In this document: positions 31,063 through 52,129 of the stretch, piece after piece
Layout: each line of letters starts with the position of its first letter
How positions within the stretch are numbered: the stretch's first letter is position 1
IMG/VR virus record: IMGVR_UViG_3300027917_002335
Location: 35,502-99,501 of that record
DNA: 64,000 nucleotides
Source: a virus
Reading direction: 5' to 3' (one strand)
The notes under the pieces: generated by a model
Seen by the model: the letters and a program-made list of their open reading frames with translations, nothing else
Database searches by the model: none
Told to the model about the DNA's origin: nothing
Made by a program: the position numbers and the translations under genes

Positions 31063-31220
31063 TGTATGAAAGAAAAATGTGCCCTATGTGTGGAGCAGTG
31101 GGAAAAGATTTAAGAGAAGTAGAAGATAGAAGACCAAGTAGAAGAATGTATAGAATTTCTACTGGAACTTTTATGTATCCTAAAAAGAATTATTGTAAAA
31201 AATGCGGGTATGAATGGTAA
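31062..31220 (+). CDS. Zinc-ribbon protein (52 aa)
   Basis: CPMC (7, 10) and CKKC (45, 48) flank an Arg-rich stretch (EDRRPSRRMYR). Stop and next start overlap (TAATG). Confidence 0.6.
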   Translation: MYERKMCPMCGAVGKDLREVEDRRPSRRMYRISTGTFMYPKKNYCKKCGYEW

Positions 31221-31663
31221 TGAGCTTACAAAGATTTATGGATGGAGTTTTTGAAGGAATTTGGGACACAAAAGATTTCAAAACAGATAAGTTTATTGCG
31301 TGGGATATAGGTTCGGAGATTGTAATTAATCGGAATTTTTTTCCCGATGATATAAGAATTTATACAGAATATAAAACAGTTCAAATGGTTTATTCTTATA
31401 AAACTGGCGTATGTATTGAATGGAACGGAAACTATTTCTTTGCTAATATGATAAAGAAATATATTGAAGAAGGATTTCAAAACAAACCTGTTGAAATAAG
31501 ATTTTTTAGGGCTGGTTTAGTTTATATGGAGTTTAAGATAGATGAAACTTACTCCTTTGTTGTTCAACAAATTATGGATTACGATGGTAAAGGAGATTTA
31601 AAACCAATACCATTTGACAAAGTATTTAAAAATGTAACAATTTCAAGTGATATGGAATTATGA
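31220..31663 (+). CDS. Hypothetical 147-aa protein with DMEL tail
   Basis: Beta-rich, with repeated aromatic strands and no recognised motif. It ends in ISSDMEL, the first of six proteins here with this C-terminal tail. The stop overlaps the next start as ATGA. Start ATG 31220 is chosen over 31214 because it overlaps the previous stop. Confidence 0.65.
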   Translation: MSLQRFMDGVFEGIWDTKDFKTDKFIAWDIGSEIVINRNFFPDDIRIYTEYKTVQMVYSYKTGVCIEWNGNYFFANMIKKYIEEGFQNKPVEIRFFRAGLVYMEFKIDETYSFVVQQIMDYDGKGDLKPIPFDKVFKNVTISSDMEL

Positions 31664-31869
31664 AATATAAGTCAAGTGAAGATGTATGGATAGTAATGTT
31701 TGAAAATGTAGGATATTCTTGGCTTCCTCAATACATTATTAGTGTGTTTGCTGATAAGAAGAGAGCGGAAGAAGAAGTTGCTTATCTGAAAGACAATCCA
31801 AGATTTAAATTTGTCCTACTCGAAAAACAGAAAGTAAATGCTGAAAAAAAGGCGAAGAAAGAAAAATGA
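31660..31869 (+). CDS. Hypothetical 69-aa protein
   Basis: Alpha/beta (WIVMFENVGYSW..YIISVFADKKRAEEEVAYL) with a Lys-rich end. Reads like a small DUF-type ferredoxin fold. ATGA overlaps on both sides. Confidence 0.55.
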   Translation: MKYKSSEDVWIVMFENVGYSWLPQYIISVFADKKRAEEEVAYLKDNPRFKFVLLEKQKVNAEKKAKKEK

Positions 31870-32033
31870 GCAAAATAGGAAGAATATTGAAATGGATTTT
31901 TGCAAGACCAAGATGCTTTTTATGTAGAAAGAGATTTCATAAAGGAGACCAAGTTGTAGAATTTTTTGGCGGATTTGCGCACTATACTTGTTTCGATAAA
32001 CAAATGCAAGAAAACGAAGAAAGAGGAAAATGA
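31866..32033 (+). CDS. Small basic zinc-knuckle protein (55 aa)
   Basis: CFLC (17, 20) and H40/C42 (AHYTC) could bind zinc, with a basic N-terminus. ATGA overlaps on both sides. Confidence 0.55.
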   Translation: MSKIGRILKWIFARPRCFLCRKRFHKGDQVVEFFGGFAHYTCFDKQMQENEERGK

Positions 32034-32320
32034 TACTAGGCGAATTATTAAAAACCGAAGGATTTGACAACTTTGAAGAAAAAGAAATAATAAGGCATAT
32101 ACTTTGGGGAATTTTTGAATGGGAAGTACAAAAAAGAATTTATAGAATAAACCGTGAAGGAATTGTTGCCTTAGAAAAATCAATTAACTCGGTTTTTGAG
32201 AAATTCATTAAACCAAGATATAAAGTTAGAGCAACAATTCTTGATCATTCCGACGATGATGCCGCTTGGGGAGTTGCTATGATGGAAAGAAAAATAGATT
32301 TTAAGTTGATAAAAGAATGA
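32030..32320 (+). CDS. Hypothetical 96-aa protein
   Basis: N-terminal helices, then a strand pair VRATILDHSDDDAAWGVAMMERKIDF. No family recognised. ATGA overlaps. Confidence 0.55.
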   Translation: MILGELLKTEGFDNFEEKEIIRHILWGIFEWEVQKRIYRINREGIVALEKSINSVFEKFIKPRYKVRATILDHSDDDAAWGVAMMERKIDFKLIKE

Positions 32321-32520
32321 GAAGACAACAATACAATCACAAACAATTAAGAAGGAAAAAGAAGCATAAGAAAAGGGATAATAAATATCAAATTCCTCAT
32401 TTGTATCCTTGTGCTAATCCAAAAGCTACTCGAAGATATTTGAGAGATCATAAATGTAAAGTATGTGGAAGATATTTTTATAAATGTGAGTGCGATGACA
32501 AAAATAAGAATAAATTATAA
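32317..32520 (+). CDS. Very basic zinc-finger-like protein (67 aa)
   Basis: Lys/Arg/His-rich first half, then C32, CKVC (47, 50), C57 and C59. Likely nucleic-acid binding. Confidence 0.55.
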   Translation: MRRQQYNHKQLRRKKKHKKRDNKYQIPHLYPCANPKATRRYLRDHKCKVCGRYFYKCECDDKNKNKL

Positions 32521-32650
32521 TGTGGTTTGTAAAAACTGTGAATATTTTAATGGTTTTCACAATTATTGTGTTAAATATCATGTTCCTACTCGCGGCGATG
32601 ATTGGGGATGTAATAAACACAAAAAAAATAAAAGAGGTTATTTATCTTGA
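32495..32650 (+). CDS. Zinc-binding small protein (51 aa)
   Basis: ATG at 32495. CKNCEYFNGF (12-21), C25, and C39 echo the protein at 30479. Basic end. Overlaps the previous gene by 26 bases. Confidence 0.5.
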   Translation: MTKIRINYNVVCKNCEYFNGFHNYCVKYHVPTRGDDWGCNKHKKNKRGYLS

Positions 32651-32898
32651 GTCCTTATATAAAACTAGAAGGAAGACCAGATATGGATGAAATTGTCGAT
32701 CTTATGGTTAAGAAAGGAGTAAAAGCCAATGGAGATTTAAACTATGTATTGTTTAAATTTGCCAAGTATCACATTACTCCGAGTTATAATAACTATAAGA
32801 ATTTCTGTGGCGAATTACAAGAATGCGCTGTTGAAATTAGACGACAAATTTTAGCGAAGTATGAAAATACAAAAATTAAAGAAAACGGCGATGTATAA
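32647..32898 (+). CDS. Hypothetical 83-aa protein, TTG start
   Basis: TTGA overlap with the previous stop. Helical, mixed charge, with KFAKYHITPSYNNYKNFCGEL in the middle. The spacing of the helices loosely resembles the 117-aa dCMP/phage DUF proteins, but no match can be claimed. Confidence 0.55.
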   Translation: MSPYIKLEGRPDMDEIVDLMVKKGVKANGDLNYVLFKFAKYHITPSYNNYKNFCGELQECAVEIRRQILAKYENTKIKENGDV

Positions 32899-32903
32899 TT
32901 AAA

Positions 32904-32996
32904 ATGACACAAATTATAGCAATATTGTATTTATTAGGAGCATTGTTCCTCTGTGCAGGAGCAATACTTGGATTAATACAAGCTTTTAGAGGTTAA
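32904..32996 (+). CDS. Single-span membrane peptide (30 aa)
   Basis: Residues 4-27 are one hydrophobic helix; ends AFRG. Comparable to the 36-aa peptide at 29377. Short, so uncertain. Confidence 0.4.
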   Translation: MTQIIAILYLLGALFLCAGAILGLIQAFRG

Positions 32997-32999
32997 AAA

Positions 33000-33272
33000 A
33001 TGGTAGATTACAACAATCCTCCTCCAGTTTGCCATTTATGTGAGAAGTTTTATACTCCTCTCAAAAATGGTATAGATGTTTTCTTAATGACTGGAGTGGA
33101 TAACAACGAAATATATATATATTGGAGAGCAGATGTATATGAATGTCCAGAATGCCATGTTCAAATTATAACTCGATTTGGTGCTCCACAACATTATTTT
33201 GAAAATAAGGAGAAAATAAAGGCAATATATAAATCTGCCAAAATGAGAGGAACTATAGTTGAAGTAACATGA
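33000..33272 (+). CDS. Zinc-ribbon protein (90 aa)
   Basis: CHLC (11, 14) and CPEC (49, 52) with a beta hairpin between, then a helical C-terminus. ATGA with the next gene. Confidence 0.6.
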   Translation: MVDYNNPPPVCHLCEKFYTPLKNGIDVFLMTGVDNNEIYIYWRADVYECPECHVQIITRFGAPQHYFENKEKIKAIYKSAKMRGTIVEVT

Positions 33273-33418
33273 AATTAGAAAAAGAAGAATACGCTAGTTT
33301 AGGAGATGGTAAGTTAATGAAAACTCTTGCTATTCACCTTATACCAGAAGATGAAGAAGACGAAAGAATTATAAGAGAAATACATATTTCTAAACTTGGA
33401 GATATGATATATTTATGA
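33269..33418 (+). CDS. Hypothetical 49-aa acidic protein
   Basis: Strand-rich acidic peptide (AIHLIPEDEEDERIIREIHIS) coupled by ATGA to both neighbours. Unrecognised. Confidence 0.45.
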   Translation: MKLEKEEYASLGDGKLMKTLAIHLIPEDEEDERIIREIHISKLGDMIYL

Positions 33419-33801: not shown

Positions 33802-33983
33802 AAATAAACTATTTAAATCTTTTCTTTATTTTTTTATTAATTAGTTAATTTTAGAATAATAAATATAGTATTTTTTATGCTCACATTTAAAAAGGTTTAA
33901 AAGAACTATTAATTAAAGAAAAAAGTAAAATTATAGATCAAAAGTAAATTCGTCTAATTTTATGTAAAAATTTGGGAGAAAAA
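33802..33983 (+). promoter_or_regulatory. T-rich terminator and promoter of the replication operon
   Basis: TTTCTTTATTTTTTTATT just after the stop is a likely terminator. TTTAAAAAGGTTTAAAAG (about 33887-33903) is a TATA candidate for the operon starting at 33984. GGGAGAAAAA is the ribosome site. Inverted ATTAATTA/TTAATTAA-type stretches occur but are low complexity. Confidence 0.45.
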
Positions 33984-35093
33984 ATGATGATAGAGAACGC
34001 CCTTAAAAGTCCATTGAAAACGCATTCTGATTATAGTTACCAGCGATTTTGTAAAAATGTTAAAAAGTTAGTTTTCCAAAATAGATTTACCATAGATGAG
34101 ATTGCTAAAATGACAAAGCGTTCTGTTGAAGAATGTGTCGAAGCATTTGAAATCTACACTGGGAAAAAATTACCTGCTACATTTCTGATTGCTGGAAATG
34201 AAAGGCAAATAAATGAACTCAGAAAACTCATCCTCCAAAAACAAAAAATCCTTCTCTTCGGAAAAAACGGGGTAGGTAAATCAACTATACCGAAAAAATT
34301 GGCTCAAGAATTAGGTTGGAGAATTGTTTATTCATACCCCACAAATAATGAAGAGCTTTTAGTAGATTTCTCTGAACTTCCCCTCAAGACAAAGAACACA
34401 ATCTTTGTTATTGAGGGGGACTCCTTTTATTGGAGGAGTTATGGATTAATAAATCACTATATTAAAGAATCTAAAAATCCAATAATTATTATTGTAGATA
34501 AATCTGATAAGGTTCACGCTACAGTAAGAAAACAATTAGTAACAGTAAAATTATCTTCACCAACAAGAGAAGATGTAAAGAAATGGGTGGAAAGAAAATA
34601 CCCAGATTGGAAGGGAAATATTAATGATGTGTATGACGAGAATATGCGAGTCACACTCCGAAATATTAAGTATGGGATAAAAACCTATAAACCTTCTAAG
34701 GAAGAGAAGCTGGACGCCCAGCAAGTAGCATACCGTGTGATACAAGGAAAGGCAACAGTCCAGGACTTCGAAAATTGTATACATCCTTTTGATTGGATAC
34801 TTAGTTGGATAGGATATAATGCCTATACTTTTTATTACGGCACAGATGTTCAAGATTTAATGTCTTGGATTGATGACAAAAAATATAATTTTAAACCTGA
34901 TTATCTCAGAGGTTGTCTTCTTAATTTGAGAAAGCCTGATAAAAGAGGAAAGTTAAAATTTCCTCCACAAGGATTTAAACCTAAAAAGGAAGATGAGGAA
35001 GATTGGATTAAAGAAAAACGAAAAATTAAAAAAATTAAGAAGGAAGAACCTCAACCTAAAGTTTTTAAGTTTGCAGGAGATATGGAACTGTGA
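33984..35093 (+). CDS. AAA+ ATPase, clamp-loader large-subunit-like, DMEL tail
   Basis: 369 residues from ATG 33984. Walker A is FGKNGVGKST (92-101); the Walker B place reads TIFVIEGDS (139-147), not the usual DE; then NPIIIIVDKSDK and VTVKLSSPTREDVKKWV follow as in RFC-L. An N-terminal extension (1-85) contains a helix-turn-helix-like part. The C-terminal 50 residues are a Lys/Glu/Pro linker ending FAGDMEL. It heads the operon that has the RFC small-like subunit three genes later, which supports a clamp-loader role. Another AAA+ function cannot be excluded. Confidence 0.7.
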   Translation: MMIENALKSPLKTHSDYSYQRFCKNVKKLVFQNRFTIDEIAKMTKRSVEECVEAFEIYTGKKLPATFLIAGNERQINELRKLILQKQKILLFGKNGVGKSTIPKKLAQELGWRIVYSYPTNNEELLVDFSELPLKTKNTIFVIEGDSFYWRSYGLINHYIKESKNPIIIIVDKSDKVHATVRKQLVTVKLSSPTREDVKKWVERKYPDWKGNINDVYDENMRVTLRNIKYGIKTYKPSKEEKLDAQQVAYRVIQGKATVQDFENCIHPFDWILSWIGYNAYTFYYGTDVQDLMSWIDDKKYNFKPDYLRGCLLNLRKPDKRGKLKFPPQGFKPKKEDEEDWIKEKRKIKKIKKEEPQPKVFKFAGDMEL

Positions 35094-36479: not shown

Positions 36480-37113
36480 ATTTGTAACTCCTCACGCCAT
36501 TAAATACAAGGCTCGTGAAAAGCTAATAATGGAGAGAACCAAAGCTGGTCATAGAGGACCTATTGGAGCTATTCGTCTAACTGCTGATAGAACTGTTGAG
36601 GCTTTTCTTGATTACTTTGATATGTTAGGCTCAGATGGTTGGATTTATTCTGGAATTTGTGAAGATCCAGATCTTCCCTATGGTGGGGTTCATGTATTCT
36701 ATAAATGGGTTGAAGACGATGGTTTTAAATCAACCATTGAAGAACCAGAAATTATAGATGAACAACCTCTTTCTGCTTCTGAAGTTTATGAAAGAGAAAG
36801 AGAGAGACAAGAACTTTTAAAACAAACAACCGATCCTAGACAAATATCGGATGCAAGATTAAATGCTGAGATGATGGCACGACAAGAACCAATTAAGGAT
36901 TTAGATGAAGATAGCGATATCTTAGAAGAATTAGATTATGCAGTTCATCACGAAGAAGTTATGGAAGACGAAGATCCAAAGAAAATTAGGTTTGAATTAT
37001 ACAAACAGTATGAAGAAATCAATCCTAATAAGAAAGCTGTTTTTAGAGGCAAAGAAACACAAGGATTTACAGAATGGTTGGAATCACAACAGGAAAAATG
37101 GGCTAAAAAATAA
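36460..37113 (+). CDS. Hypothetical 217-aa protein
   Basis: Basic N-terminal 45 residues, an alpha/beta middle (VEAFLDYFDMLGSDGWIYSGIC..GGVHVFYKWV), then a very acidic helical region and a basic end. Stop and next start overlap (TAATG) with the clamp-loader gene. Could be a replisome accessory protein by position. Confidence 0.65.
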   Translation: MKRIVNRFVTPHAIKYKAREKLIMERTKAGHRGPIGAIRLTADRTVEAFLDYFDMLGSDGWIYSGICEDPDLPYGGVHVFYKWVEDDGFKSTIEEPEIIDEQPLSASEVYERERERQELLKQTTDPRQISDARLNAEMMARQEPIKDLDEDSDILEELDYAVHHEEVMEDEDPKKIRFELYKQYEEINPNKKAVFRGKETQGFTEWLESQQEKWAKK

Positions 37114-38090
37114 TGAACCTTGATGTGAAATACCGTCCGAGAACCTTTAAGGAATTTAAAGGCAACGAACGGATTATTAGGGATATAAAAGCCTTACTCA
37201 AAGTTGGAGATTTACCACACCTTATGTTTGTTGGACCTCCAGGAACTGGTAAAACAACACTAGCACTTCTTATTGCTCGAACAGTATTAGGAAGACCTAT
37301 TCATATTAATACTCGTGATGGCGATCCAGATTTTAAAGAGTTAAATGCTTCTAGTGCAAGAGGAATAGATGTTGTAAGAGAAGTAATAGAAGAATACGCT
37401 AGGGTTAAACCATTAGAAGGTACTCCTTATAGATTTATTTTATTAGATGAAATAGATTCTTCTACTCAGGAATTTCAACACGCCCTACGACCTGTTATTG
37501 AAAAGAATGAAGATAGATGTAAGTTTATTCTATGTTTAAACAGGATTCAAGGAATAAAAGAACCAGCTTTAATTTCTAGGTGTGCAACATTCTTTTTTGA
37601 AAAGCCTAATACTGATGTAACAGCTAGCTTGTTACTTGAAATAGCTGAGAAGGAAGGAGTTAAATTTGAGGATGAACAATTAGCTTATGATGTAGCAGAA
37701 TATTATGAAGGAGACTTGCGCCATATTCTCAACGATTGTTTAGAAACATTAAGAGGATATGATGAGGTAATAACTAAAGATCATTTATGGAAAGTCTATG
37801 AGAAAAATGGAAAATCAGTTGCTTCAAGAGTATATGAATCTGAAAATCCAAAGGAAGAATTCTTTACAATATATAGGAAAGAAGCCTTTGATGTTAGAGA
37901 GTTTTTGGAAGAATATTTCAAGCTCTTAGGAGATAAAGGGATTCCGCACTCGAAAGAGATTTCCAAGATAGACGCAAGAATTAGAAATTATTGTAATGTA
38001 CCAATACAAATGAGTTATTTTTTCTCGTTATTTGAAAACGAAGGTGAAAAAGAGGATGGAATTAAGACTAAGTTTAAAAAACCCTTCTGA
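37113..38090 (+). CDS. rfcS: Clamp-loader small subunit (RFC-S-like)
   Basis: 325 residues with the RFC boxes in order: KYRPRTFKEFKGNE (6-19), Walker A VGPPGTGKTT (40-49), LNASSARGIDVVRE (77-90), Walker B ILLDEIDSS (109-117) and the arginine-finger SRC motif ALISRC (about 151-156). It loads the sliding clamp onto primed DNA. C-terminal collar region is present, length normal. Adjacent large-subunit-like ATPase and clamp genes complete the set. Confidence 0.93.
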   Translation: MNLDVKYRPRTFKEFKGNERIIRDIKALLKVGDLPHLMFVGPPGTGKTTLALLIARTVLGRPIHINTRDGDPDFKELNASSARGIDVVREVIEEYARVKPLEGTPYRFILLDEIDSSTQEFQHALRPVIEKNEDRCKFILCLNRIQGIKEPALISRCATFFFEKPNTDVTASLLLEIAEKEGVKFEDEQLAYDVAEYYEGDLRHILNDCLETLRGYDEVITKDHLWKVYEKNGKSVASRVYESENPKEEFFTIYRKEAFDVREFLEEYFKLLGDKGIPHSKEISKIDARIRNYCNVPIQMSYFFSLFENEGEKEDGIKTKFKKPF

Positions 38091-38358
38091 ATTGGCATTG
38101 TTAAAAGAAGTCACCAAAGCATTAGGAAACTATACTCGATTAGCTATTTTAGATTTAATTGCTAAAGATACCACAGGCAATTTAAACTATGGAGAATTGG
38201 CAAACAAATTGAAGAGAAGTCCTACTGCTATTACAAATCATATGGGTTTGTTAAGGAGAAGCAAGTTGACAGAGGATATGATAGTAGAAGGGAAAAGAGG
38301 TAAAATGCAAAAACTTCCACAATTAAAATATGACAAAATAGTTATTGAGTTAAAATGA
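38056..38358 (+). CDS. ArsR-type winged-helix regulator (100 aa)
   Basis: Start ATG 38056 (GGTGA 8 bases upstream). ALGNYTRLAILDLIAK (about 24-39), GELANKLKRSPTAITNHMGLLRRSKL (about 47-72) and a wing EGKRGKMQKL follow the ArsR/Archaeal wHTH layout. No metal-binding cysteines. Likely controls this operon or the viral cycle. Confidence 0.8.
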   Translation: MELRLSLKNPSELALLKEVTKALGNYTRLAILDLIAKDTTGNLNYGELANKLKRSPTAITNHMGLLRRSKLTEDMIVEGKRGKMQKLPQLKYDKIVIELK

Positions 38359-39197
38359 ATGACTACGACTTCATGCCACAAACTCCAGAAGATATAAACT
38401 CTCCTGTGTTAGTTCCGTTTGGTCACGATAGTACAATTATAAGATTGTTGCTTGATTTAGAAAAAGATGTATATGTGGCACCTCAATATAAATTCTGGGG
38501 AACAAGGTTGCAAATATTATTGAAGAGACATCCTAGTAAATATACACTCGATTATATTCAAGAGAAAATAAACAGTGAATATACTGGTGTAGTTACGAAG
38601 AGTAAATATAGACATCTATTCAATACTCTTTTTAATGAAGAAACTGCCGAGTTCATAGATAAAATTTACCAGATTGAATTCGATCAAAAAGAAAAAGATA
38701 TCGTTATTTTCTTATTAACCTATGAACTTGAACGAAGGAGTGATGATCTATATCAATTCAAAAAAACGACTCTAAATTTAGAAGTATTGAATGATATATT
38801 TGAAAATTTACTCGATTATTTTGATTTTCTAGTTGATGTTAAAAATATGAGAGTATATATCCTAAAAGATGAATTAAGCAATCAAAAGTTTGGTGGAGTT
38901 GTGGATTCTTTATATAGGAACGCAAGGTATTATACGCCACAATATTTAGGATTTGTTTCTGTATTTACAGGAGAAGTAGAACATGTAAAAAGCTGGGAAG
39001 ATAGACTCCAACATGTTGCAGAACATAATTTAATACATGGAGGAAGAATTTATTTGCCCGACTATCCAAGTGAATATAAAATTAAGATAGATAAAATGTT
39101 AAATAAATTAAATTATAAGAAAGAAAGTTTGTTTGTTTGGCGTAGACCAGATATCAAGGTAAATAAAATTACAAAAGGAATAAAAAGGTATTTTTAA
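38355..39197 (+). CDS. Hypothetical 280-aa protein
   Basis: Helical, rich in Tyr, Phe and Leu, with basic end KVNKITKGIKRYF. No motif recognised. ATGA overlap with the winged-helix gene, one base gap to the next gene; part of the replication operon. Confidence 0.7.
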   Translation: MNDYDFMPQTPEDINSPVLVPFGHDSTIIRLLLDLEKDVYVAPQYKFWGTRLQILLKRHPSKYTLDYIQEKINSEYTGVVTKSKYRHLFNTLFNEETAEFIDKIYQIEFDQKEKDIVIFLLTYELERRSDDLYQFKKTTLNLEVLNDIFENLLDYFDFLVDVKNMRVYILKDELSNQKFGGVVDSLYRNARYYTPQYLGFVSVFTGEVEHVKSWEDRLQHVAEHNLIHGGRIYLPDYPSEYKIKIDKMLNKLNYKKESLFVWRRPDIKVNKITKGIKRYF

Positions 39198-39198
39198 T

Positions 39199-40527
39199 AT
39201 GGAGCTAGATTTACACACAAAGAAAGTTTTAGAAAATTTAGCTAAGTCTTTTGAGAAAGATTTCTCCAAGGTGGTTGAACTTTTTGAATATGCACGGGAG
39301 AAAATCGCTGAAGAGACAGGCAAGAAAGAGCCCAAACTTAGCATCGCTGCTATACATGTAACAAGGGCTAAGCTAACAGAGCTTCAACAAGAAACTGGAA
39401 AAGAAATAAATATTATTATATTTGGAAAAGATCCTAGTAGAGATTCCAATGCTTCACTACGAAAACAGATTCTTGCTGACTTCTGGAATAATCCAGAATC
39501 AAGACGAAAAGTCGTTGAGCAAGGAAAAGTTATGGTAATGAAAGCAGGTAAGGGAGATCCTACTAAAGATTTTCATTCAGTTTATAAGCCTGTTACAAAG
39601 ATTATAGAATCAGTAGAAGTTGACGGAGAAACAGTCGTAACAAAGGGAGAGATTTGGGATCCTGCATTGGTTATCGATCCTATTTGTAGAGACTTTAGAA
39701 AGTTCTTAGATGATGACGAGAATGTAGAGAATTGGAATTATACCAAACCGTTATTAGAGAATTGGCGTACTACTTATTTTGGAATTGGTTATTTTGAAGA
39801 CACTCCAGATCTAACCAAGAAAGTTCAACTAAGATTTTTTGGTGATAGTGCTGATCCTCATAGTGGACAATTTGTAGGTAAACGAATTGATTTCTTTATT
39901 CCATATAAAGTGAAAGTAACAGTAAATGAAAATTTAAGCACAGAAGATTGTTATTCTGTATCTGCTAAAAATGTTCCTGTTCCATCTGGAGATGTTGATA
40001 TTGACATTATAGCAATGTTAGAAGCAATTAACACAATGCATAGAGCCAGATTAGAAGCAAAAGGAAAGAAACCATTAGATTTAATTCCTATTGTTGATAT
40101 GGCTGATTTAAAGAAATGGCATTTAGAACGCAGAGCTAGGAAAGATGTTGATGGAAACATAATGAAATCAGATTCCGGCTGGGATTTAACAAATTGGGAT
40201 GAATATTGTGTCATAGATCAAGTTACCTATCTTGGTTTGAGAGAATTTTCAGAAGGATACAAACCAGCAGTACTTCAACACGATTCAACTGGTAGGCGTT
40301 CTTTCTTTGTTAATTATGACAACGATATTAATATGAATGTTCCTGTACCAGCAGATATATTGATTTGTGTTAAGACTGGAAGAGGTCTATCTTCTTATGA
40401 TAGAGAATCAAGAACCAAAGTAGAACTTTCTGACGATCCAGATTTGTCAATTAACATTTGTGGATTGAAAACTTTAGAGAGTTATGAGAAGATTATCTTT
40501 CCAAAAGAGGTTACTGGTGACTTGTAA
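39199..40527 (+). CDS. Hypothetical 442-aa protein; possible ssDNA-binding role
   Basis: N-terminal helical domain (1-70), then a long alpha/beta and beta-rich body with strands such as FIPYKVKVTVNENL and RRSFFVNYDNDINMNVPVPADILICVKTG. No diagnostic motif. Its place between clamp-loader and RecA-like/clamp genes is where a single-strand-binding or OB-fold protein would be expected, but this is only positional inference. Confidence 0.7.
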   Translation: MELDLHTKKVLENLAKSFEKDFSKVVELFEYAREKIAEETGKKEPKLSIAAIHVTRAKLTELQQETGKEINIIIFGKDPSRDSNASLRKQILADFWNNPESRRKVVEQGKVMVMKAGKGDPTKDFHSVYKPVTKIIESVEVDGETVVTKGEIWDPALVIDPICRDFRKFLDDDENVENWNYTKPLLENWRTTYFGIGYFEDTPDLTKKVQLRFFGDSADPHSGQFVGKRIDFFIPYKVKVTVNENLSTEDCYSVSAKNVPVPSGDVDIDIIAMLEAINTMHRARLEAKGKKPLDLIPIVDMADLKKWHLERRARKDVDGNIMKSDSGWDLTNWDEYCVIDQVTYLGLREFSEGYKPAVLQHDSTGRRSFFVNYDNDINMNVPVPADILICVKTGRGLSSYDRESRTKVELSDDPDLSINICGLKTLESYEKIIFPKEVTGDL

Positions 40528-42069: not shown

Positions 42070-43011
42070 ATGACAAGATTTAGAATTAAAGGTAAAGAAT
42101 TCCAAAAGTTTTTGGATGGAGTGTCTTGCAGAGGGGTACTCCAATTTAAAAGTAAGGGGAAAACAGAAGCACCCCTTTTCTCTGCTTTTTATATTGATGT
42201 AGATAAAGATAATCAAAAGCTAACTGTTTTAACAATTGATACATTCTTTCAACAAATAAAGCAAGACAGTTCAATTAAAGCAAAGGTTGATGAAGCTGGA
42301 GTGGTTGAAATAACTAACAAGATAACCTTTGACAAAATCTTTAAATCTATGGATGTTGAAAAAGAAATAGAAGTTTGGGATGACCAAGACGCTATTTATA
42401 TTCAAACTGTGGATGGTTCAGATTGGTATAAGAGAAGGTTAACTGGAGACAAGGCTTTAGACGATGTTTATAGCCAGAAAGATTTGCTTTTTAATTGGAG
42501 AGATTCTCATTCTTATGTAGATGTTGTAGCCGATGATGGCGAAACAATGAAAGTAGCAAAATTCACGACTCCAAAAGGTTCTGCTTTATATCCTATGAGA
42601 ATAAAGTTAGACAAAAAAGATTTACTTAAACTCGTATCTGATTCAATAAATCTCACAAAAGATAATGATACTGTTATTTTTAGTGAGGAAGGAAAATTAA
42701 TTATATCTACTGGAAGACCTAATGCCACTAGTATGGCTCGTCATAAAATTACATATGAGAATTTAGGAAAAGAAATATTACCTTTCTCAATTAAGTTCTC
42801 TGCCTTACAAGCAATCATTCCTAATTTGTTAGATGAAATTATTTTTAATTTCAGAAAGCAAAAGAATGAGACAATGGTTTTAAGAATAGAGAGTATGGAC
42901 AAGACTATGGTTCAAGTGTTTTCAATTGGAAGTCAAGACAAAGATGGAGTCTTGTATGATGTAGATATAATTGAAGAAGTAGAAAGTATAGAAGATATAG
43001 AGGAAGAGTAA
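42070..43011 (+). CDS. Sliding clamp (PCNA-like)
   Basis: 313 residues, longer than the usual 245. Repeated beta-alpha-beta modules, with an early FQKFLDGVSCRGVLQFK and a late FSIKFSALQAIIPNLLDEIIFNF..MVLRIESM that fits the final DNA-clamp strand pattern. The C-terminus is an acidic tail. Assignment relies on fold pattern plus location between RecA-like and polymerase genes and near both clamp-loader-like genes. Confidence 0.65.
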   Translation: MTRFRIKGKEFQKFLDGVSCRGVLQFKSKGKTEAPLFSAFYIDVDKDNQKLTVLTIDTFFQQIKQDSSIKAKVDEAGVVEITNKITFDKIFKSMDVEKEIEVWDDQDAIYIQTVDGSDWYKRRLTGDKALDDVYSQKDLLFNWRDSHSYVDVVADDGETMKVAKFTTPKGSALYPMRIKLDKKDLLKLVSDSINLTKDNDTVIFSEEGKLIISTGRPNATSMARHKITYENLGKEILPFSIKFSALQAIIPNLLDEIIFNFRKQKNETMVLRIESMDKTMVQVFSIGSQDKDGVLYDVDIIEEVESIEDIEEE

Positions 43012-43285: not shown

Positions 43286-43443
43286 CTGATAGAGATATAA
43301 TTGTAATAAGAACTAAGGATTATGCTTTTGAACATTTAGAAGAATTCTCTCGTTTTGTAGAGCATGTTCAGATGTTCGATGACGACAAAACTAAATTTAT
43401 CGTTATACCAAACCAGATTGTAGAGGAAGTAGAAAGATTATGA
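43282..43443 (+). CDS. Hypothetical 53-aa protein
   Basis: Acidic alpha/beta peptide (IIVIRTKDYAFEHLEEF...KFIVIPNQIVEEV), coupled by ATGA to both neighbours. Confidence 0.5.
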   Translation: MTDRDIIVIRTKDYAFEHLEEFSRFVEHVQMFDDDKTKFIVIPNQIVEEVERL

Positions 43444-44717
43444 ACCTTAAGATAATGAATTATGGGTATTATAACAACAAGAGCGATGTTGAAAAATATA
43501 ATGCCCCAATTTTACTTTTATTTTGCAGAGATGAGAAGGGAAACTTTCATGTAGTTTATATTTGTGATAAGGAAAATTTAGCACCAGAAATGTATATACC
43601 AAAAAATGAAATACATATAGCCAAAGAGCTAGATAATATTATAACAATAACTGATGGACCACCATCAAATTATGGAGAGGAAACTCTTAGATTAACAACA
43701 ACATTTCCATGGGAAGTAAGAAGAAACAGGGATTTGTTTAGTCACACATTCTTGTCAGATATTAAATGGGAAAAAATGTGTATAGAGAAGATGGGAATTC
43801 GCACTCCTTACATCACAGTTTCGGACGATTTTAAAGATAGATGGTTGACTGTCAAAGACATCAAAGAATTAAATGAATACGATCATTTCTATGTCAAGAT
43901 TAGAACAGTTATATGGGATATAGAAACAAATGGAGAGCCAGTTTATCCTTTGTTTAATGGATATGATGATGCAGAAATATGCGATATAATAAGCATTACA
44001 GCATACGATAATTATACAGAGGAATATCATAGATTTATTTGGCATCCTCTTATTAAAGAAGACAGTCTTGAATTTGTTAAGAACTGGGAAAGAAGAGGAG
44101 AATATTATGTACCAGCTCTCAAAAAAAAGAAGAAATATTTCAATGTAAATAAAGTTTTTAATCATAATTTCACCAATGAAGTTGATATGTTGAAAAATTT
44201 TATAGACTGGATTGCTATGATAAGACCAGATGTTATGTTTGGTTTTAATAGTGAAGGAGGATATAAAATCTCAACTAAGAAAGGATATTCAAGAAAATAT
44301 TATCACGCTGGATTTGATATGCCTTATTTCTATAAAAGATGTAAGGCTCTCAAGATATTAGATTATATGGAAAAACTTAGCCCTCTTCCTAATACAATTA
44401 AAGGAGTTAAATGGAGAAGTCAAGGCAAGAAAGGAGGAGTGAGTATAGAAGGATTGTGTCAGATAGATTTCATATATACGAATGCCATCTTTATGTATGA
44501 TAAGAAATTTAATGAATTTAGAGAGGGCAACTTAGATGGATATATGAAATATTTTGTGGGATTTGGAAAGGTTCATCATAAAGAACATGTATGGGAACTT
44601 TGGAAGAATAACGAAACTTCTGATTATGATCCAACAAATCCAGAACAATATTTAATTAATAAAGAAAGAAATTTGGTGAAGGAATTATATACGAAAGCGA
44701 AGAAAATATTCGAGTGA
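43440..44717 (+). CDS. polB: DNA polymerase B, N-terminal part (exonuclease Exo I-II)
   Basis: 425 residues. Exo I is VIWDIETNGEP (157-167, D160/E162); Exo II is split over GFNSEGG (about 278) and HAGFDMPYFYKR (about 291-302) with the Asn and Asp in place. The protein ends soon after, before Exo III. Exo III and all polymerase motifs are on the protein at 45318, three small genes downstream. The two parts must assemble for a working proofreading polymerase. Start and stop overlaps with neighbours show that this is a settled gene, not sequencing breakage. Confidence 0.88.
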   Translation: MNLKIMNYGYYNNKSDVEKYNAPILLLFCRDEKGNFHVVYICDKENLAPEMYIPKNEIHIAKELDNIITITDGPPSNYGEETLRLTTTFPWEVRRNRDLFSHTFLSDIKWEKMCIEKMGIRTPYITVSDDFKDRWLTVKDIKELNEYDHFYVKIRTVIWDIETNGEPVYPLFNGYDDAEICDIISITAYDNYTEEYHRFIWHPLIKEDSLEFVKNWERRGEYYVPALKKKKKYFNVNKVFNHNFTNEVDMLKNFIDWIAMIRPDVMFGFNSEGGYKISTKKGYSRKYYHAGFDMPYFYKRCKALKILDYMEKLSPLPNTIKGVKWRSQGKKGGVSIEGLCQIDFIYTNAIFMYDKKFNEFREGNLDGYMKYFVGFGKVHHKEHVWELWKNNETSDYDPTNPEQYLINKERNLVKELYTKAKKIFE

Positions 44718-44827
44718 AATGTCCTTTTTGTCTTAGTGAAAAAGTAAATGATATAGGTGACATAGATCATCGAATATATCTCTGTGAAAAGTGTAATGAA
44801 ATGTGGTATGGAGAAGACTATGATTAG
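44714..44827 (+). CDS. Zinc-ribbon peptide (37 aa), GTG start
   Basis: CPFC (3, 6) and CEKC (24, 27). GTGA overlap with the polymerase N-part. One of three genes lying between the polymerase halves. Confidence 0.5.
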   Translation: MKCPFCLSEKVNDIGDIDHRIYLCEKCNEMWYGEDYD

Positions 44828-45068
44828 ATGTAAGAAATGTGGGCTTGAATTAAGGTTGTCTTGTGGTTGTACTGGTCATTTTGAATGCCCGAGGTGTGGT
44901 AGAGTAGATTCTGAAGCAACAAACTTAAGATGTCCAATGCATAATGTACCATTAGTACCATACAAACCAACATTAGGTTGGACAGCAAAGAATACATACA
45001 AATGTCCAGTTGCTGGATGTTTTCATATTATTCATATCCATAAAATGGAACCATTTAGGTTTGAATAA
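44820..45068 (+). CDS. Zinc-rich protein (82 aa)
   Basis: At least ten cysteines in CKKC, CGC, CPRC, C43 and C66/C71-type positions with His; two or more zinc sites are likely. It lies between polymerase halves and could bind them or DNA. Stop overlaps next start. Confidence 0.6.
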   Translation: MIRCKKCGLELRLSCGCTGHFECPRCGRVDSEATNLRCPMHNVPLVPYKPTLGWTAKNTYKCPVAGCFHIIHIHKMEPFRFE

Positions 45069-45346
45069 TGATACTGTCAGATATATTAAAAGAAGGAGAA
45101 AAATCATACGAGATACCTCCTGCTTATAGAACTATTGAGATACGACATCGTAAACTTGCGTTGACTATTGTAAAATATGATGTAATAATAACATTTGAAC
45201 AATACAGTAGTTTAATGAAAGACATGAAAGATGGTAGAGCCGTTTGGGTTGATGGAAAAGAAGCAATGATAGTTTATACAAGAGGAGTAAGTATGATTGA
45301 AGATATGATAAAAATAGATGAGATTAGATATGACTGTTTGCGATAA
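45068..45346 (+). CDS. Hypothetical 92-aa protein
   Basis: Alpha/beta, rich in Ile, Asp and Lys (ALTIVKYDVIITFEQYSSLMKDMKDG). Its last 29 bases overlap the start of the polymerase C-part. Unrecognised; third gene in the polymerase gap. Confidence 0.6.
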   Translation: MILSDILKEGEKSYEIPPAYRTIEIRHRKLALTIVKYDVIITFEQYSSLMKDMKDGRAVWVDGKEAMIVYTRGVSMIEDMIKIDEIRYDCLR

Positions 45347-46994
45347 GTTGCTCGACTATAATCTTGTAGATGTGGAAGGTCTTGTCTTATTAGACGATTT
45401 CTTTAAGATGATAGAAGACCAATTTGAACAAGCACATCTTGTGGTTGCTCCTCCAGACGATGGAATATATTCCAGCAAAATGCACGACCATGATATGATT
45501 AGAGATTATAGAGAGACAATGGTTTTTGATACAAAGTATCAGAAATGGGAGAGAAAACCAATAACAGGTAAGAAGCAGATTGGTTCTAAATTTACAATTA
45601 CATTGGAAGATTTAGTAGAAGTTAGGAAGAGGAGAGGAGATACTGAAGAAATTAAAAGTTTACATGATTTGCCAAAAATCGGGGGGTATGTGCCTGAACC
45701 ATTAAGAGCCGGGATGTTCGTATGGGTTATTACAATAGATTTTAACAAACAATATCCCAATGCGATAATGAGTTCAAACGCCGGAATAAAAACAGCAATT
45801 AATTTGTTAAAATATAACGATGAAGAAGTTTGGGATAAGGATGGAACGGTTTACCAACGAACGAATCTAATCGAAACGCCCATGGGCTTTTTCAGGAAAG
45901 ATATTGAATCAGTTAATAGAAAGAAATTTATGAAGTGGCTTGAGTTACGATTAAAAGCTCAAGAGATGGCTACAGCGTACTTAAAAGCTAAAAAAACTAT
46001 TGAAGATCCAATGTATAAGTTGTTAGATGGCAAACAATTTCGAATCAAAACTTTCACGAATGGAGGATTCGGAATCATGGGTTTACCAGCTGACAGGAAT
46101 TACTCAAAATTTATATTCAATAATTGTACTCTCATGTGTCAAGATTTGACTAAGAAGATGATGAATGTTTTAAAAGAACTTGACTATGTTGTTATTGGAG
46201 GAGATACAGATTCTTGTTTTGTTTGTTTAAAATGTAAAAATTTAGAAGAAGCAATAGAAGAGGGAAAAGAATTAGTAAATAAGATTAATAAGATAATAGA
46301 TAATTATCTTCGTAGAGTTTATAATATACAAGAACACACAATGAAAGTTGGATTAGAAACTATATCAGATAAATTCTGGGTTAAAGCAGCTAAAAATTAT
46401 GTTAAAAGAAATCTATGGAAGGATGGTCAAATTTTAGACAAGGCTGAATTAGAAATAAAAGGTATCTCTCAAAAGAAGAGAAACACATCTAAATTCTCTG
46501 CTGACTTACAATCTACTATGATAGATATATTGTTAGATTCTCCTAATGTAGAGGAAGATTTTAAATTATTGATGAAAGTTCTTGATTCAAGATTCGAAAC
46601 ATTACCTTGGACTTATATTGCACCTAAAGGAGCAATCAATAGTGAGATAGATGATTATGATTTAGGTAATAGAAATGCAAGAGGAGCTAGAAACACTCGT
46701 GATTATTTTAACAAATATTTTAATCCTGGCGACAATCCATATATAATGCCGTTCAGCCAGTTTCCTAAGAAGTTGAATGGAAAGTTTGTAACACCTTATA
46801 AAGGAGATACAATTGTGTTATCTTTTGATGAAGAAGATGTAGAAGAACTTAAAAATTTAGGATTCGTTCCAGATTATGAAGAATTAAAAAGAAGCCAGTT
46901 AAATGAGAAATCAAAACCGTTTCTCAGCTTAATGAATACTTCTTATTATCAAATGAGAGCATTAAATAAAGTGAGCAATGATATGGAATTATGA
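45318..46994 (+). CDS. polB: DNA polymerase B, C-terminal part (Exo III and polymerase), DMEL tail
   Basis: 558 residues. It opens with Exo III, DYNLVDVE (Y14/D18), then motif A VITIDFNKQYPNAI (137-150), motif B KTFTNGGFGIMG (244-255) and motif C IGGDTDSC (293-300, D296/D298). It ends VSNDMEL. Motif A has DFNKQYP in place of the common DxxSLYP. With the part at 43440 this makes a full family B polymerase, split between Exo II and Exo III. The C-terminal tail may bind a shared partner such as the clamp. Confidence 0.92.
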   Translation: MRLDMTVCDKLLDYNLVDVEGLVLLDDFFKMIEDQFEQAHLVVAPPDDGIYSSKMHDHDMIRDYRETMVFDTKYQKWERKPITGKKQIGSKFTITLEDLVEVRKRRGDTEEIKSLHDLPKIGGYVPEPLRAGMFVWVITIDFNKQYPNAIMSSNAGIKTAINLLKYNDEEVWDKDGTVYQRTNLIETPMGFFRKDIESVNRKKFMKWLELRLKAQEMATAYLKAKKTIEDPMYKLLDGKQFRIKTFTNGGFGIMGLPADRNYSKFIFNNCTLMCQDLTKKMMNVLKELDYVVIGGDTDSCFVCLKCKNLEEAIEEGKELVNKINKIIDNYLRRVYNIQEHTMKVGLETISDKFWVKAAKNYVKRNLWKDGQILDKAELEIKGISQKKRNTSKFSADLQSTMIDILLDSPNVEEDFKLLMKVLDSRFETLPWTYIAPKGAINSEIDDYDLGNRNARGARNTRDYFNKYFNPGDNPYIMPFSQFPKKLNGKFVTPYKGDTIVLSFDEEDVEELKNLGFVPDYEELKRSQLNEKSKPFLSLMNTSYYQMRALNKVSNDMEL

Positions 46995-47131
46995 TACCAG
47001 ATAATGTATGTATTTTATGTGGCAAAAGAGGATATTGTATAGATTTCAAGGAAGGTTCTTATGATATATATAGATGTCCTTATTGTAAAAGATTTTGGAC
47101 TATAATGGTAGATAAAAATGAAGATTCTTAA
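46991..47131 (+). CDS. Zinc-ribbon protein (46 aa)
   Basis: C7/C10 (CILC), C16 and CPYC (29, 32). ATGA overlap with the polymerase; overlaps the methyltransferase by 14 bases. Confidence 0.55.
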   Translation: MIPDNVCILCGKRGYCIDFKEGSYDIYRCPYCKRFWTIMVDKNEDS

Positions 47132-47789
47132 TTTATTCGCAGGAATAGGAGGAAATCGTGCTCTATGGGGAGACGAGCACGAAGTTACAGCGGTAGAACA
47201 TGACGATAGAATTGCTCGAATTTACAAAAGAAGATACAAGAATGATAGAGTAATTATTGCGGATGCTTATGATTACTGTCTTTGGTTCTATGATGAATAT
47301 GATTTCATTTGGGCTTCCCCGCCTTGCCCTACTCACTCTATTACCAACAATTTTCTACATGCTCAAGGTGTAAGGAGATATCCAGATATGAAACTCTGGC
47401 AGTTAATTATCTTCTTAAAATACTATTCAACTTATAATAATAATAATATCAACTGGGTAGTAGAAAATGTTAAAACCTACTATGAACCTATTATAAAACC
47501 ATCATTCATACTGGGCAGGCATTACTTCTGGTCTAATGTCCATATACCTAGGAAGAAGTATGAATACTCTACAATTACAGTTACTAATGTGAAATCTGCT
47601 ACAAGAAGAGATAATTGGGAATACTTAGCAGAGTTAGAAAAATATTTAGGAATTAAATTAGCTGATGATGTAACTGGAGAGAGAAGAAGACAATTATTAA
47701 GAAACTGTGTTAAGCCAGAAATAGGAAAATATATATTAGATTATATTATAGAAGGACCTAGTGAGATAAGTAATGATATGGAGTTATAG
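47118..47789 (+). CDS. dcm: DNA cytosine-5 methyltransferase, DMEL tail
   Basis: 223 residues, short for the family. Motif I is LFAGIGGNRA (6-15), the catalytic loop SPPCPTHS (67-74) holds the nucleophile Cys, motif VI is WVVENVK (about 112-118), and a later RRRQLLRNCVKP (about 198-209) fits motif IX/X. Target-recognition region is small. Ends ISNDMEL. It stands with two adenine methyltransferases and may protect viral DNA from host restriction. Confidence 0.9.
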   Translation: MKILNLFAGIGGNRALWGDEHEVTAVEHDDRIARIYKRRYKNDRVIIADAYDYCLWFYDEYDFIWASPPCPTHSITNNFLHAQGVRRYPDMKLWQLIIFLKYYSTYNNNNINWVVENVKTYYEPIIKPSFILGRHYFWSNVHIPRKKYEYSTITVTNVKSATRRDNWEYLAELEKYLGIKLADDVTGERRRQLLRNCVKPEIGKYILDYIIEGPSEISNDMEL

Positions 47790-48075: not shown

Positions 48076-48076
48076 T

Positions 48077-48625
48077 ATGTATGATGAATGGAATAAAATA
48101 AAAGCAAAATGCCGTGACAGTGTAGTGGTAGATAAAGTGTTGTTCGAATCAAAATCTATTGAGTGGGGTACTCCTCAATGGTTATTTGACGAACTAAATG
48201 AAGAATTTGATTTTGTCTTAGATCCTTGTGCTAACGAAGAAAACCATAAATGTGAGAAATGGTATTCAAAAGAAGACAATGGTCTATCACAAGATTGGTC
48301 TATCTATAAAAGGGTTTTTATGAATCCTCCTTATGGAAGAGTAATAAAAGATTGGATGAAAAAGGCACACGAAGAATATTTGAAAGGAGCTACTGTTGTT
48401 TGTCTTGTTCCAGCAAGAACTGATACACAATGGTGGCACGACTATTGTATGAAAGCAACTGAGATTAGATTTATCAAAGGTAGGTTGACATTTGAAGGAG
48501 GAAAGCATTCTGCTCCTTTTCCATCAGCGATTGTCGTTTTTCAATTGAGAGATTATCCAAACTTTTTTGGAGAAGTAAGTAGATTTATTAAGAATAATGA
48601 AGTGAGATGCAGTAAATATGGGTAA
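48077..48625 (+). CDS. Phage-type N6-adenine DNA methyltransferase
   Basis: 182 residues from ATG 48077 (a GTG at 48068 is possible). TPQWLFDELNEEFDFVLDPC (about 30-48) and FMNPPYGR (about 79-86, the NPPY catalytic motif) define the phage Dam/DNA_N-6-adenine-methyltransferase family (PF05869 type). Overlaps the next methyltransferase by 8 bases. Confidence 0.88.
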   Translation: MYDEWNKIKAKCRDSVVVDKVLFESKSIEWGTPQWLFDELNEEFDFVLDPCANEENHKCEKWYSKEDNGLSQDWSIYKRVFMNPPYGRVIKDWMKKAHEEYLKGATVVCLVPARTDTQWWHDYCMKATEIRFIKGRLTFEGGKHSAPFPSAIVVFQLRDYPNFFGEVSRFIKNNEVRCSKYG

Positions 48626-49484
48626 TTGGATACAATCATTATTAGGATGGTATGGAGGAAAATATAATTTATTGGATTATATTTTACCTTTCCCAAGACA
48701 CACAACTTTTGTAGAAGTATTTGGAGGCAGTTCTGTTGTTTTGTTTAATAAGATACCCTCTGAAATAGAAGTTGTTAACGATATAAATTCACGATTAATT
48801 AATTTCTGGAAGACAATTCAAGAAGCACGAAGAGAATTTGTAGATTATTGTAAGAATGAAGGAGGAATAGATAGTCGTGCCTTATTCGATGAGTATAGAG
48901 AAAAGGCAGATAAGAAAGTAGAAGATGCTTTTAGATTATATTATGTAAATCATCACAGTTTTTCACAAATGAATAATGCTTATCATGGAATTTCATTTAC
49001 AGGAAGAGAACAATGGCATTCTCCTTATCTAAATAAATTGGAGCATATAGACGAATATTATAAGAGAATAAAACATGTGCAATTTGAATGTCAAGATTTC
49101 AGAAAATTATTAAAAAGATGTGATAGAGAAACGGCTTGTATTTATTTAGATCCTCCTTATTTTACAGGAGGAGAAGTTTATGAATATATGGCTGGAATAG
49201 AAACAGGCTGGAATCAACAAGATTTTGTAGATTTAAGAACACTATTGAAAGATATTAAGAAAGCTAAGTTCGTTCTTAGTATAGACGAGAAAGATTTTTG
49301 GTTAGAAGAAATGCCAGATTTATATGTGCAACCAATAGAGAGAGTTAATAATGCTTCTCTATCTATAGGTGAAGAGAAATCTAGGAGTATAGAATATGTG
49401 ATTAGAAATTATAATCCAAGAACTACTCCGACTATGAGAACTATGGCTGGTAAAAATAAAATAAAAAACGATATGGAATTATAA
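48618..49484 (+). CDS. dam: D12-class N6-adenine methyltransferase, DMEL tail
   Basis: 288 residues. GWYGGKYNLL (9-18), FVEVFGGSSVV (31-41, AdoMet site), and CIYLDPPYF (about 173-181, DPPY catalytic motif) place it in the D12 (GATC-type) group. It ends in a flexible, basic linker and IKNDMEL. Target site cannot be read from sequence. Confidence 0.9.
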   Translation: MGNWIQSLLGWYGGKYNLLDYILPFPRHTTFVEVFGGSSVVLFNKIPSEIEVVNDINSRLINFWKTIQEARREFVDYCKNEGGIDSRALFDEYREKADKKVEDAFRLYYVNHHSFSQMNNAYHGISFTGREQWHSPYLNKLEHIDEYYKRIKHVQFECQDFRKLLKRCDRETACIYLDPPYFTGGEVYEYMAGIETGWNQQDFVDLRTLLKDIKKAKFVLSIDEKDFWLEEMPDLYVQPIERVNNASLSIGEEKSRSIEYVIRNYNPRTTPTMRTMAGKNKIKNDMEL

Positions 49485-50128: not shown

Positions 50129-50279
50129 AGAAATAAATAATATATTGGATGCATTAGTAGATGATTTTAGGTATGTATTAGATCTTGCTATCGAATGGAT
50201 GGATGATCCAAAATCATTCGAGCCAGATTATAGAAAACTAAATGAATTATTAGATATTTTTGATAAGTGGTTTAAATGA
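50121..50279 (+). CDS. Hypothetical 52-aa acidic helical protein
   Basis: Acidic, all-helical, ATGA overlap with the next gene. Unrecognised. Confidence 0.5.
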   Translation: MAEEINNILDALVDDFRYVLDLAIEWMDDPKSFEPDYRKLNELLDIFDKWFK

Positions 50280-50500
50280 AATTGAACAACATATTAAAGG
50301 AATTGGCAACAGTCAAAGACTTGTTGCTACAAAAATATGGAGAAGTAGAAGAACTTCGAGAAATGAATGAAAATCTTAGACAATTAAACGCTAGATTATC
50401 TAAACAAGTAAAAGATTTAAAAGAGCATAGCGCTAAAGTAGAAAAAAATAACAAGATGTTGAAGGAGCATGTACAAGGAAAATCCGAAGACAAAGGGTAG
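50276..50500 (+). CDS. Coiled-coil protein (74 aa)
   Basis: Continuous heptads from residue 5 to 68 (EVEELREMNENLRQLNARL). Overlaps the radical SAM gene by 32 bases. Possibly an oligomerisation partner; function unknown. Confidence 0.6.
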   Translation: MKLNNILKELATVKDLLLQKYGEVEELREMNENLRQLNARLSKQVKDLKEHSAKVEKNNKMLKEHVQGKSEDKG

Positions 50501-51209
50501 TGGAATATATGCTGTAATTCCGCAAACAGGTCATTGTCCTAACAATTGTGATGATTGTTTCTTCCAATCAGGTCGTTCTTTCTTAGAACCTTTGGATGAG
50601 AATTTACCCAATCTTTACGATTATAAATATCTTGAAGAAATGTATAGTAAAGTGTTTAGGATAAATGATGGAAACGATAGTAATGTTGACAGAGAAACTG
50701 TTATGGAAAAGACAGGCAAATATCTGTTGAAATTCTATAATACTGCTATCCCAAGAGACTTAGAAGAGTTTGATGCTCCATTTGTTTTGACTATAAATCC
50801 GGGGTTTATGACTGATAGAAGTTGGCATAAACTTATAGAGATTCCAAAGAATTTAATGTTTGTAAGAATAAGAACGAACTGTTGGAATTTAGAACAAGTT
50901 GTCAAACCAGCGGTGAAATACTATACTGAGAAAGAAGTACCAGTTGTATTAACATTCATGGCTTACTTTGATACTCCTATTCCAGAAGGATATGAAGATG
51001 ATTATATATTTAGAAAGAGAACTCTTAACTCTTACAATGCTATAACTACACAAGCATGGGAAGAGATTATGAGAATGTTTAAATATAATGCTTATGTATA
51101 TTCTTGTGGAAAGATTGAAGGAGAAAAAGGAACAACCAAATGTGCCAGATGTGGTAATTGTATAAGAGAATTTTTTGTTACAATGGAACGAATGAAAGAT
51201 GAGTTATAA
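50469..51209 (+). CDS. Radical SAM enzyme
   Basis: 246 residues. GHCPNNCDDCFF (21-32) holds the CxxxCxxC triad for the 4Fe-4S cluster that cleaves AdoMet. A second cluster motif, TTKCARCGNCIREFF, lies near the C-terminus (about 225-239), so an auxiliary Fe-S or zinc site is likely. The substrate is unknown. Neighbours (deoxyribosyltransferase-like, sulfotransferase, methyltransferases) hint at nucleotide, DNA or protein modification. Confidence 0.85.
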   Translation: MYKENPKTKGSGIYAVIPQTGHCPNNCDDCFFQSGRSFLEPLDENLPNLYDYKYLEEMYSKVFRINDGNDSNVDRETVMEKTGKYLLKFYNTAIPRDLEEFDAPFVLTINPGFMTDRSWHKLIEIPKNLMFVRIRTNCWNLEQVVKPAVKYYTEKEVPVVLTFMAYFDTPIPEGYEDDYIFRKRTLNSYNAITTQAWEEIMRMFKYNAYVYSCGKIEGEKGTTKCARCGNCIREFFVTMERMKDEL

Positions 51210-51696
51210 TAGACGAATAGAAGAAGGATATAAAAAAATAGGAAAAAAATTAGATAAAGACGGCAATATTATGAAAAAAATTTATTTTGCTCATCCATTT
51301 GACAAATGGAATAGCAAACGAGAAGAAATGATAGAGCAAACATTATCAGAGAGAGGTTACGAAGTTATAAATCCTTTCAAAGAAGAGGATAGACTAAACG
51401 AAAAATATGGCGTTAATAATTACTACGAAGATCCAACCTATGAATTTGCCAGAGATATAGTTGACAAGGATTATCAGATGGTCAAAGATTGTGATGAATA
51501 TTTTGGTTGGTTTCCAAAAGATGTCACAATGATTGGTACTCCACTTGAACTGGCTTGGGCAAAAGATTTAGGTAAAAAGATTACAGTGCTTTGCTACAAA
51601 CCACAACCTTTCTTATGGATGTATGCTGATATATTTTATATAGGATACGACAATTTTAAAAATGATGTTAGATTCTACGATAAAGAAGTTCATTGA
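51199..51696 (+). CDS. Nucleoside 2-deoxyribosyltransferase-like protein
   Basis: 165 residues, with the core starting at an internal Met (51271): KIYFAHPF.., then EEMIEQTLSERGYEVINPF, DIVDKDYQMVKDCDEYFGWFP and MIGTPLELAWAKDLGKKITVL. This follows the Nuc_deoxyrib_tr pattern (YlA.P, acidic Asp, G-T-xx-E-xxxA). Such enzymes swap or cleave bases on deoxynucleosides. ATG 51199 overlaps the previous stop but its first 24 residues look like linker. Confidence 0.7.
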   Translation: MSYNRRIEEGYKKIGKKLDKDGNIMKKIYFAHPFDKWNSKREEMIEQTLSERGYEVINPFKEEDRLNEKYGVNNYYEDPTYEFARDIVDKDYQMVKDCDEYFGWFPKDVTMIGTPLELAWAKDLGKKITVLCYKPQPFLWMYADIFYIGYDNFKNDVRFYDKEVH

Positions 51697-52129
51697 ACTA
51701 TTTGGAGAATGTTTGGAAGACGATAAGAAAGACTTGCAAGAGTATGTTGTGCAAGCCTCCGCTTCTAGGATAGAGGGTATTATAGAGTTGAAAGGATTTT
51801 ATAAGACACATACTCCAAATGAAACATTTTATAGTTTTGCAGATTTACCAAGAATTATTGAGAAAAAGAATCAAGTTGTGGCTCTTGGTAATAAATTCTT
51901 TCCTTATGAAAGAGTTAGGCAAGTGTTAGAAAACTTCTTTGTTAATAATGTCGAAGTAGGTCTCTATCATGGAAAAGGAGCTTCTGCTCTTGTGTTTAAA
52001 CTTGATGAAGAATATGGAATTATGATGGCAAATAAAGTAGAGAAAGAAAAGAAAGATCCCAATGAAGTATTATATAGGTGGGATGATTTATTTTTCCACA
52101 AAAGTTTTGGAGATGATATGGAATTATGA
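51662..52129 (+). CDS. Hypothetical 155-aa protein, DMEL tail
   Basis: Alpha/beta protein without recognised motif, ending FGDDMEL. The stop overlaps the sulfotransferase start as ATGA. Its tail links it with the DNA-handling proteins that carry the same ending. Confidence 0.65.
   Translation: MMLDSTIKKFIELFGECLEDDKKDLQEYVVQASASRIEGIIELKGFYKTHTPNETFYSFADLPRIIEKKNQVVALGNKFFPYERVRQVLENFFVNNVEVGLYHGKGASALVFKLDEEYGIMMANKVEKEKKDPNEVLYRWDDLFFHKSFGDDMEL

Follow-up and report, generated by a model that had tools for sequence, protein, structure and literature searches.

The stretch of viral DNA considered here (the window, 64,000 bases long, bases 35502-99501 of the 99,501-base virus record IMGVR_UViG_3300027917_002335) belongs to a large tailed virus, uncultured and equipped with replication genes of archaeal type, whose GC content is 32.4%, and it encodes six proteins that finish in the same short C-terminal tail, DMEL. 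All six genes lie on the + strand. A 149-amino-acid protein (31214..31663) ends in ISSDMEL (31640-31663), and an AAA+ clamp-loader-like ATPase (33972..35093), weakly recognized by Pfam AAA (4.8e-5) and by the PHROG clamp loader family (2e-4), ends in FAGDMEL (35070-35093) after a lysine-rich linker. The C-terminal, polymerase half of a family B DNA polymerase (PolB; 45318..46994; Pfam DNA_pol_B 1.3e-20) carries VSNDMEL (46971-46994). Two DNA methyltransferases follow, a C5 cytosine enzyme (47118..47789; Pfam DNA_methylase 1.8e-6) with ISNDMEL (47766-47789) and a D12 N6-adenine enzyme (48618..49484; Pfam MethyltransfD12 9.5e-27) with IKNDMEL (49461-49484), and the last carrier is a 155-amino-acid protein (51662..52129) ending in FGDDMEL (52106-52129). 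The original prediction, made from the window sequence, had placed the six tails at exactly these ends and mostly on DNA-handling proteins, and both points hold, the DNA-handling carriers being PolB, the clamp-loader-like ATPase and the two methyltransferases.

The proteins at 31214 and 51662 have no match in Pfam or PHROGs. The six carriers had been called unrelated, a description that stands except perhaps for this pair, which at approximately 20% identity and with a similar layout may be distant paralogues. The predicted structure of the 51662 protein is fair (predicted local distance difference test, pLDDT, 81), and sliding clamps recur among its weak, non-significant Foldseek matches, which offers no more than a lead towards a single clamp-like domain.

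The recurrence of the tail far exceeds what composition would give. In the whole record, GAYATGGARYTN followed by a stop occurs exactly six times, always on the + strand, and is absent from the reversed control; exactly six open reading frames (ORFs) end in DMEL. Given the amino-acid composition of this virus, 0.0013 such ends would be expected among 86 genes, and the probability of six or more is 5e-21, or approximately 8e-16 when corrected for all 160,000 possible four-residue endings. No other four-residue C-terminus occurs twice among the 86 listed genes. A relaxed search of every mechanically called ORF of at least 35 amino acids, with the pattern [VIFLMYW]-x-x-[DEN]-[MLIFV]-x-[LIMFV] at the very end, returned no further credible carrier, the only extra being one spurious ORF of 59 amino acids in the window. 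Within gene 51662, approximately 100 bases before its tail, the sequence AATATGGAATTATGA (52011-52025) is nearly a copy but is out of frame, and is probably due to chance. A repeated DNA element used elsewhere was also considered and set aside, near matches in other contexts being few and scattered.

Relatives of the virus were gathered by IMG/VR scans, with PolB identities of 62-69%, and comprise the lineages L008/L009 (near-identical), L023/L034 (a 99-kb record, G004) and L024/L025 (near-identical). L007 represents the window virus itself, and some of the related records are fragments. A search of genome contigs found no cellular relatives. It had been proposed that related viral genomes be searched for tailed homologues, and in the three other lineages all 11 homologues keep Phi-x-x-D-M-x-L at the exact end, even where a different gene follows, which is the opposite of the loss that would have told against the original prediction. 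The PolB homologues end in VSDDMQL, ISNDMIL and VSSDMIL, the D12 methyltransferases in VTDDMEL, IGDDMIL and IKNDMIL, and the 51662 family (28-36% identity) in FSSDMIL, FSSDMIL and FASDMIL. In G004, the ATPase homologue (59% identity) ends in RFTGDMVL and the 31214 homologue (40% identity) in ITSDMVL; the tail of this ATPase, QATLLRFTGDMVL, overlaps a QxxLxxF sequence resembling the PCNA-interacting protein (PIP) box. Over all 17 tails the consensus is [VIF]-x-[SNDG]-D-M-x-L-COOH, and the hydrophobic residue that had been noted at position -7 is always V, I or F. Position -2 can be E, Q, I or V: it is E throughout the window virus, I or V in G004 and I throughout G006, and one of the other lineages has a mixture. 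Of the 23 alignment columns before the tail, just 3 to 10 are invariant, and this linker shows insertions and deletions and differs in length. Conservation confined to the end, after a linker that diverges, is typical of a short linear motif. More distant PolB loci (L026-L030) have no common tail, and their PolB ends in the PIP-like TLEDFFA. Our literature search, which left most subscription journals outside its coverage, found no paper describing a DMxL tail.

The cytosine methyltransferase adds a case of apparent gain. Within the group it occurs only in the window virus and is absent from the related records, some of them fragments. Alignments with its bacteriophage relatives stop at residue 208-212 of 223, and these relatives have no tail; the bacteriophage D12 homologues that we inspected also lack one. 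The most economical inference is that this gene was captured and acquired the tail in local use, with E at -2 as in the other tails of this virus.

These comparisons also bear on whether selection acts on protein or on nucleic acid. The silent codon variation cited in the original prediction is real (Glu is GAA in five of six tails and Leu is TTA in five of six) but slight, with Asp being GAT in all six, and the codon argument alone is therefore weak. A DNA- or RNA-level element (a ribosome-binding, translation-coupling or copied junction sequence of which DMEL is a by-product) could appeal to the four of six tails that lie at four-base ATGA/GTGA gene overlaps; however, 15 of the 19 four-base gene overlaps lack the sequence, and three tails (that at 47789 and those of the ATPase and 31214 homologues in G004) have TAG or TAA as their stop, without an ATG overlapping it. 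The Shine-Dalgarno-like GGA is missing from the genomes with DMIL and DMQL tails, a substitution at -2 (DMQL) leaves the PolB tail in place, and in L009 the D12 tail persists beside a different downstream neighbor. Codon choice gives such an element some support, in that GAT is used in 17 of 17 cases (P ~0.003) and ATA in seven of seven (P ~0.008) against codon usage, if the copies are independent; orthologous copies are not independent, however, and among the six founders there is no GAT excess (P 0.26). For TTA, the excess disappears once only codons ending in A are allowed (P 0.33), the Leu codon at 35093 is CTG, and at least seven codons are used to specify the V, I or F that always stands at -7. 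The mild excess of GAT and ATA could stem from a recent common origin or from copying of tail DNA between genes. An explanation at the nucleic-acid level is thus largely refuted and highly improbable. Selection was predicted to act on the protein, and comparison with other viruses bears this out: homologues keep the tail, the linker diverges and the phage methyltransferase relatives are without it, and selection therefore acts mainly on protein. We are highly confident that the tail is real, conserved and a protein-level feature.

A candidate receptor is encoded in the same window. The protein at 42070..43011 (+ strand; 55-59% conserved in relatives), a guessed clamp in the original prediction, is a sliding clamp by fold: its predicted structure gave 322 Foldseek matches in the PDB at E<=1e-3 (best 8e-7, probability 1.00), of which the best 50 are bacterial beta-clamps and PCNA. 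It matches no Pfam family, the PCNA_N model included, and a profile comparison with HVTV-1 gene 101, a possible PCNA, gave no match. Also on the + strand are an RFC small-subunit-like clamp loader (37113..38090; PHROG clamp loader 1.6e-40) and the N-terminal, exonuclease half of PolB (43440..44717; Pfam DNA_pol_B_exo1 1.8e-11), both without the tail. In this split PolB (43440-46994) the halves lie approximately 600 bases apart with two small ORFs between them, and only the polymerase half is tailed. The protein at 38355-39197 has an end of the form KGIK[RK][FY][FY] in three viruses (GIKRYF in the window, GIKRYF at 2365-3174 in L009 and GIKKYY at 2906-3721 in L023), possibly a second kind of conserved C-terminus.

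Support for the clamp as receptor comes from the haloarchaeal Druskaviridae, whose members HVTV-1 (L057; KC117377.1) and HCTV-1 (L058; KC292029.1) carry a tail of the form [VP]L-x-[FYW]. In HVTV-1 it ends RFC-L (QSVLDF, which is PIP-like), the D12 methyltransferase, PolB and the GNAT, HNH, HTH-like and DUF6610 proteins, all in or near the replication cluster. The total of seven among 169 proteins compares with an expectation of 0.24 (P 6e-9, the motif having been picked post hoc), and when the pattern is sought at eleven other distances from the end, each gives 0 or 1. In HCTV-1 the same tail is found on RFC-L, GNAT, PolB, HNH, the HTH-like protein and the DUF6610 counterpart. As in the window virus, one tail is common to an RFC-type ATPase, a D12 methyltransferase (in HVTV-1), PolB and other DNA-handling proteins, although the Druskaviridae tail is aromatic-ended and PIP-like and that of the window virus is D-M-x-L. 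That both systems tag an RFC-type ATPase, a D12 methyltransferase and PolB provides the best evidence for DMxL as a clamp-docking tail.

Because of this parallel and of archaeal and T4 precedent, the clamp is the best candidate partner, and we put at roughly two in three the probability that the tail is a docking peptide, with a new consensus, for the viral clamp at 42070. It would act as a short linear motif seated in the ligand pocket of this clamp, a plug at the extreme C-terminus, on a variable linker, with contacts perhaps made by its free terminal carboxylate and by the side chains of V/I/F, M and L. The split PolB, the ATPase, the adenine and (in this virus) cytosine methyltransferases and the two small proteins would be tethered to the clamp on newly replicated DNA, and the purpose may be to link the synthesis of new viral DNA with its methylation. 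Several observations weigh against docking on this clamp. The 42070 model is poor overall (pLDDT 51), with only its N-terminal part confident; the tail is missing from the RFC small subunit and from other proteins of replication; two of the six carriers, the 31214 and 51662 proteins, are without assigned function; and none of the 17 tails has the Gln and aromatic pair of the canonical PIP-box, Qxx(L/M/I/V)xx(F/Y)(F/Y) (PMC6881253).

The tail might instead be a docking motif with another receptor, such as a viral replication-compartment or single-stranded DNA-binding protein (e.g., the conserved proteins at 39199, 38355 and 40830) or a host factor. We infer the clamp as partner, several conserved proteins without assigned function sit in the same cluster in relatives, and no clamp role is assigned to the tailed 31214 and 51662 proteins. 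However, PolB, a clamp-loader-like ATPase and methyltransferases are the kinds of protein that make up clamp clients, the same protein types carry a PIP-type tail in Druskaviridae, and none of G000, G001 and G004 has a PDZ_6 domain, which often reads C-termini; another receptor is thus unlikely, if still worth considering. C-terminal hydrophobic tails can also serve as degrons, and the six might share a degradation tag or a protease-processing signal common to early proteins. Against this, the tail is confined to a few proteins that mostly handle DNA, its Asp and Met do not vary and its -7 position is V, I or F, and a replicative polymerase would be an odd target for degradation; we consider this reading highly improbable. 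More tentatively, and somewhat doubtfully, the tail could be a virus-specific address tag which evolves as a unit in each genome, is added to captured genes such as that of the cytosine methyltransferase, and directs whatever enzyme bears it to the viral replisome; the receiving pocket, whether or not on the clamp, would differ from known clamp pockets.

If the tail does dock on the clamp, such ends would provide a listing, from sequence alone, of likely clamp clients in uncultured viruses, including proteins of unknown function. The tails suggest that both viral DNA methyltransferase classes are tied to the replisome, in which case new viral DNA would be methylated during synthesis. Lineage-specific tags (D-M-x-L here and [VP]LD[FY] in Druskaviridae) suggest that tag and receptor change together, and that captured genes may be recruitable simply by gaining a tail.

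Elsewhere in the window, a sulfotransferase (52126-52893) and an adenylylsulfate (APS) kinase (55603-56151) suggest that the virus may make and use activated sulfate. A second tRNA-like gene (21129-21199), the anticodon of which could not be called by ARAGORN, lies beside a tRNA-Ala(TGC) gene.

Among described viruses, the window virus resembles magroviruses as published (~92 kb, 31.5% GC, with RFC-S, PCNA and a split PolB; Druskaviridae being more distant relatives of the magrovirus group) (PMC10768690), a comparison of descriptions only. Three kinds of clamp-binding motif can be set beside the DMxL tail. The consensus of the bacterial beta-clamp-binding motif is a pentapeptide of the QL[SD]LF type. 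It is likewise short and recruits enzymes, polymerases among them, to a clamp, and the 42070 fold matches both beta-clamps and PCNA, but none of the 17 tails fits this pentapeptide, as they have neither its Gln nor its Leu-Phe ending. The PIP-box belongs to PCNA clients of archaea and eukaryotes. In a literature set, every archaeal example (from S. solfataricus, P. furiosus and A. fulgidus) sits at the very C-terminal end (PMC6881253), and in this position, in similar clamp clients and in several hydrophobic residues over about one turn the DMxL tail resembles the PIP-box; it differs in having no conserved Gln or aromatic pair, in its Leu-COOH end and in its fixed Asp-Met. In T4, gp43, gp55 and gp33 bear interchangeable C-terminal peptides that bind the clamp, and in gp55 the linker before the peptide diverges and varies in length (PMC2988020). 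The likeness to this system, in which gp45 is the clamp, extends to one extreme C-terminal tail on several unrelated viral proteins including the replicative PolB, to hydrophobic and acidic residues on a variable, divergent linker, and to a clamp and clamp loader encoded by the virus itself. The differences are the D-M-x-L consensus, the putative nature of the binding in the window virus, and clients that are a clamp-loader-like ATPase and DNA methyltransferases rather than transcription factors. The tail appears to work like a clamp tail of the T4 or PIP type, yet falls outside the sequence definition of the PIP-box.

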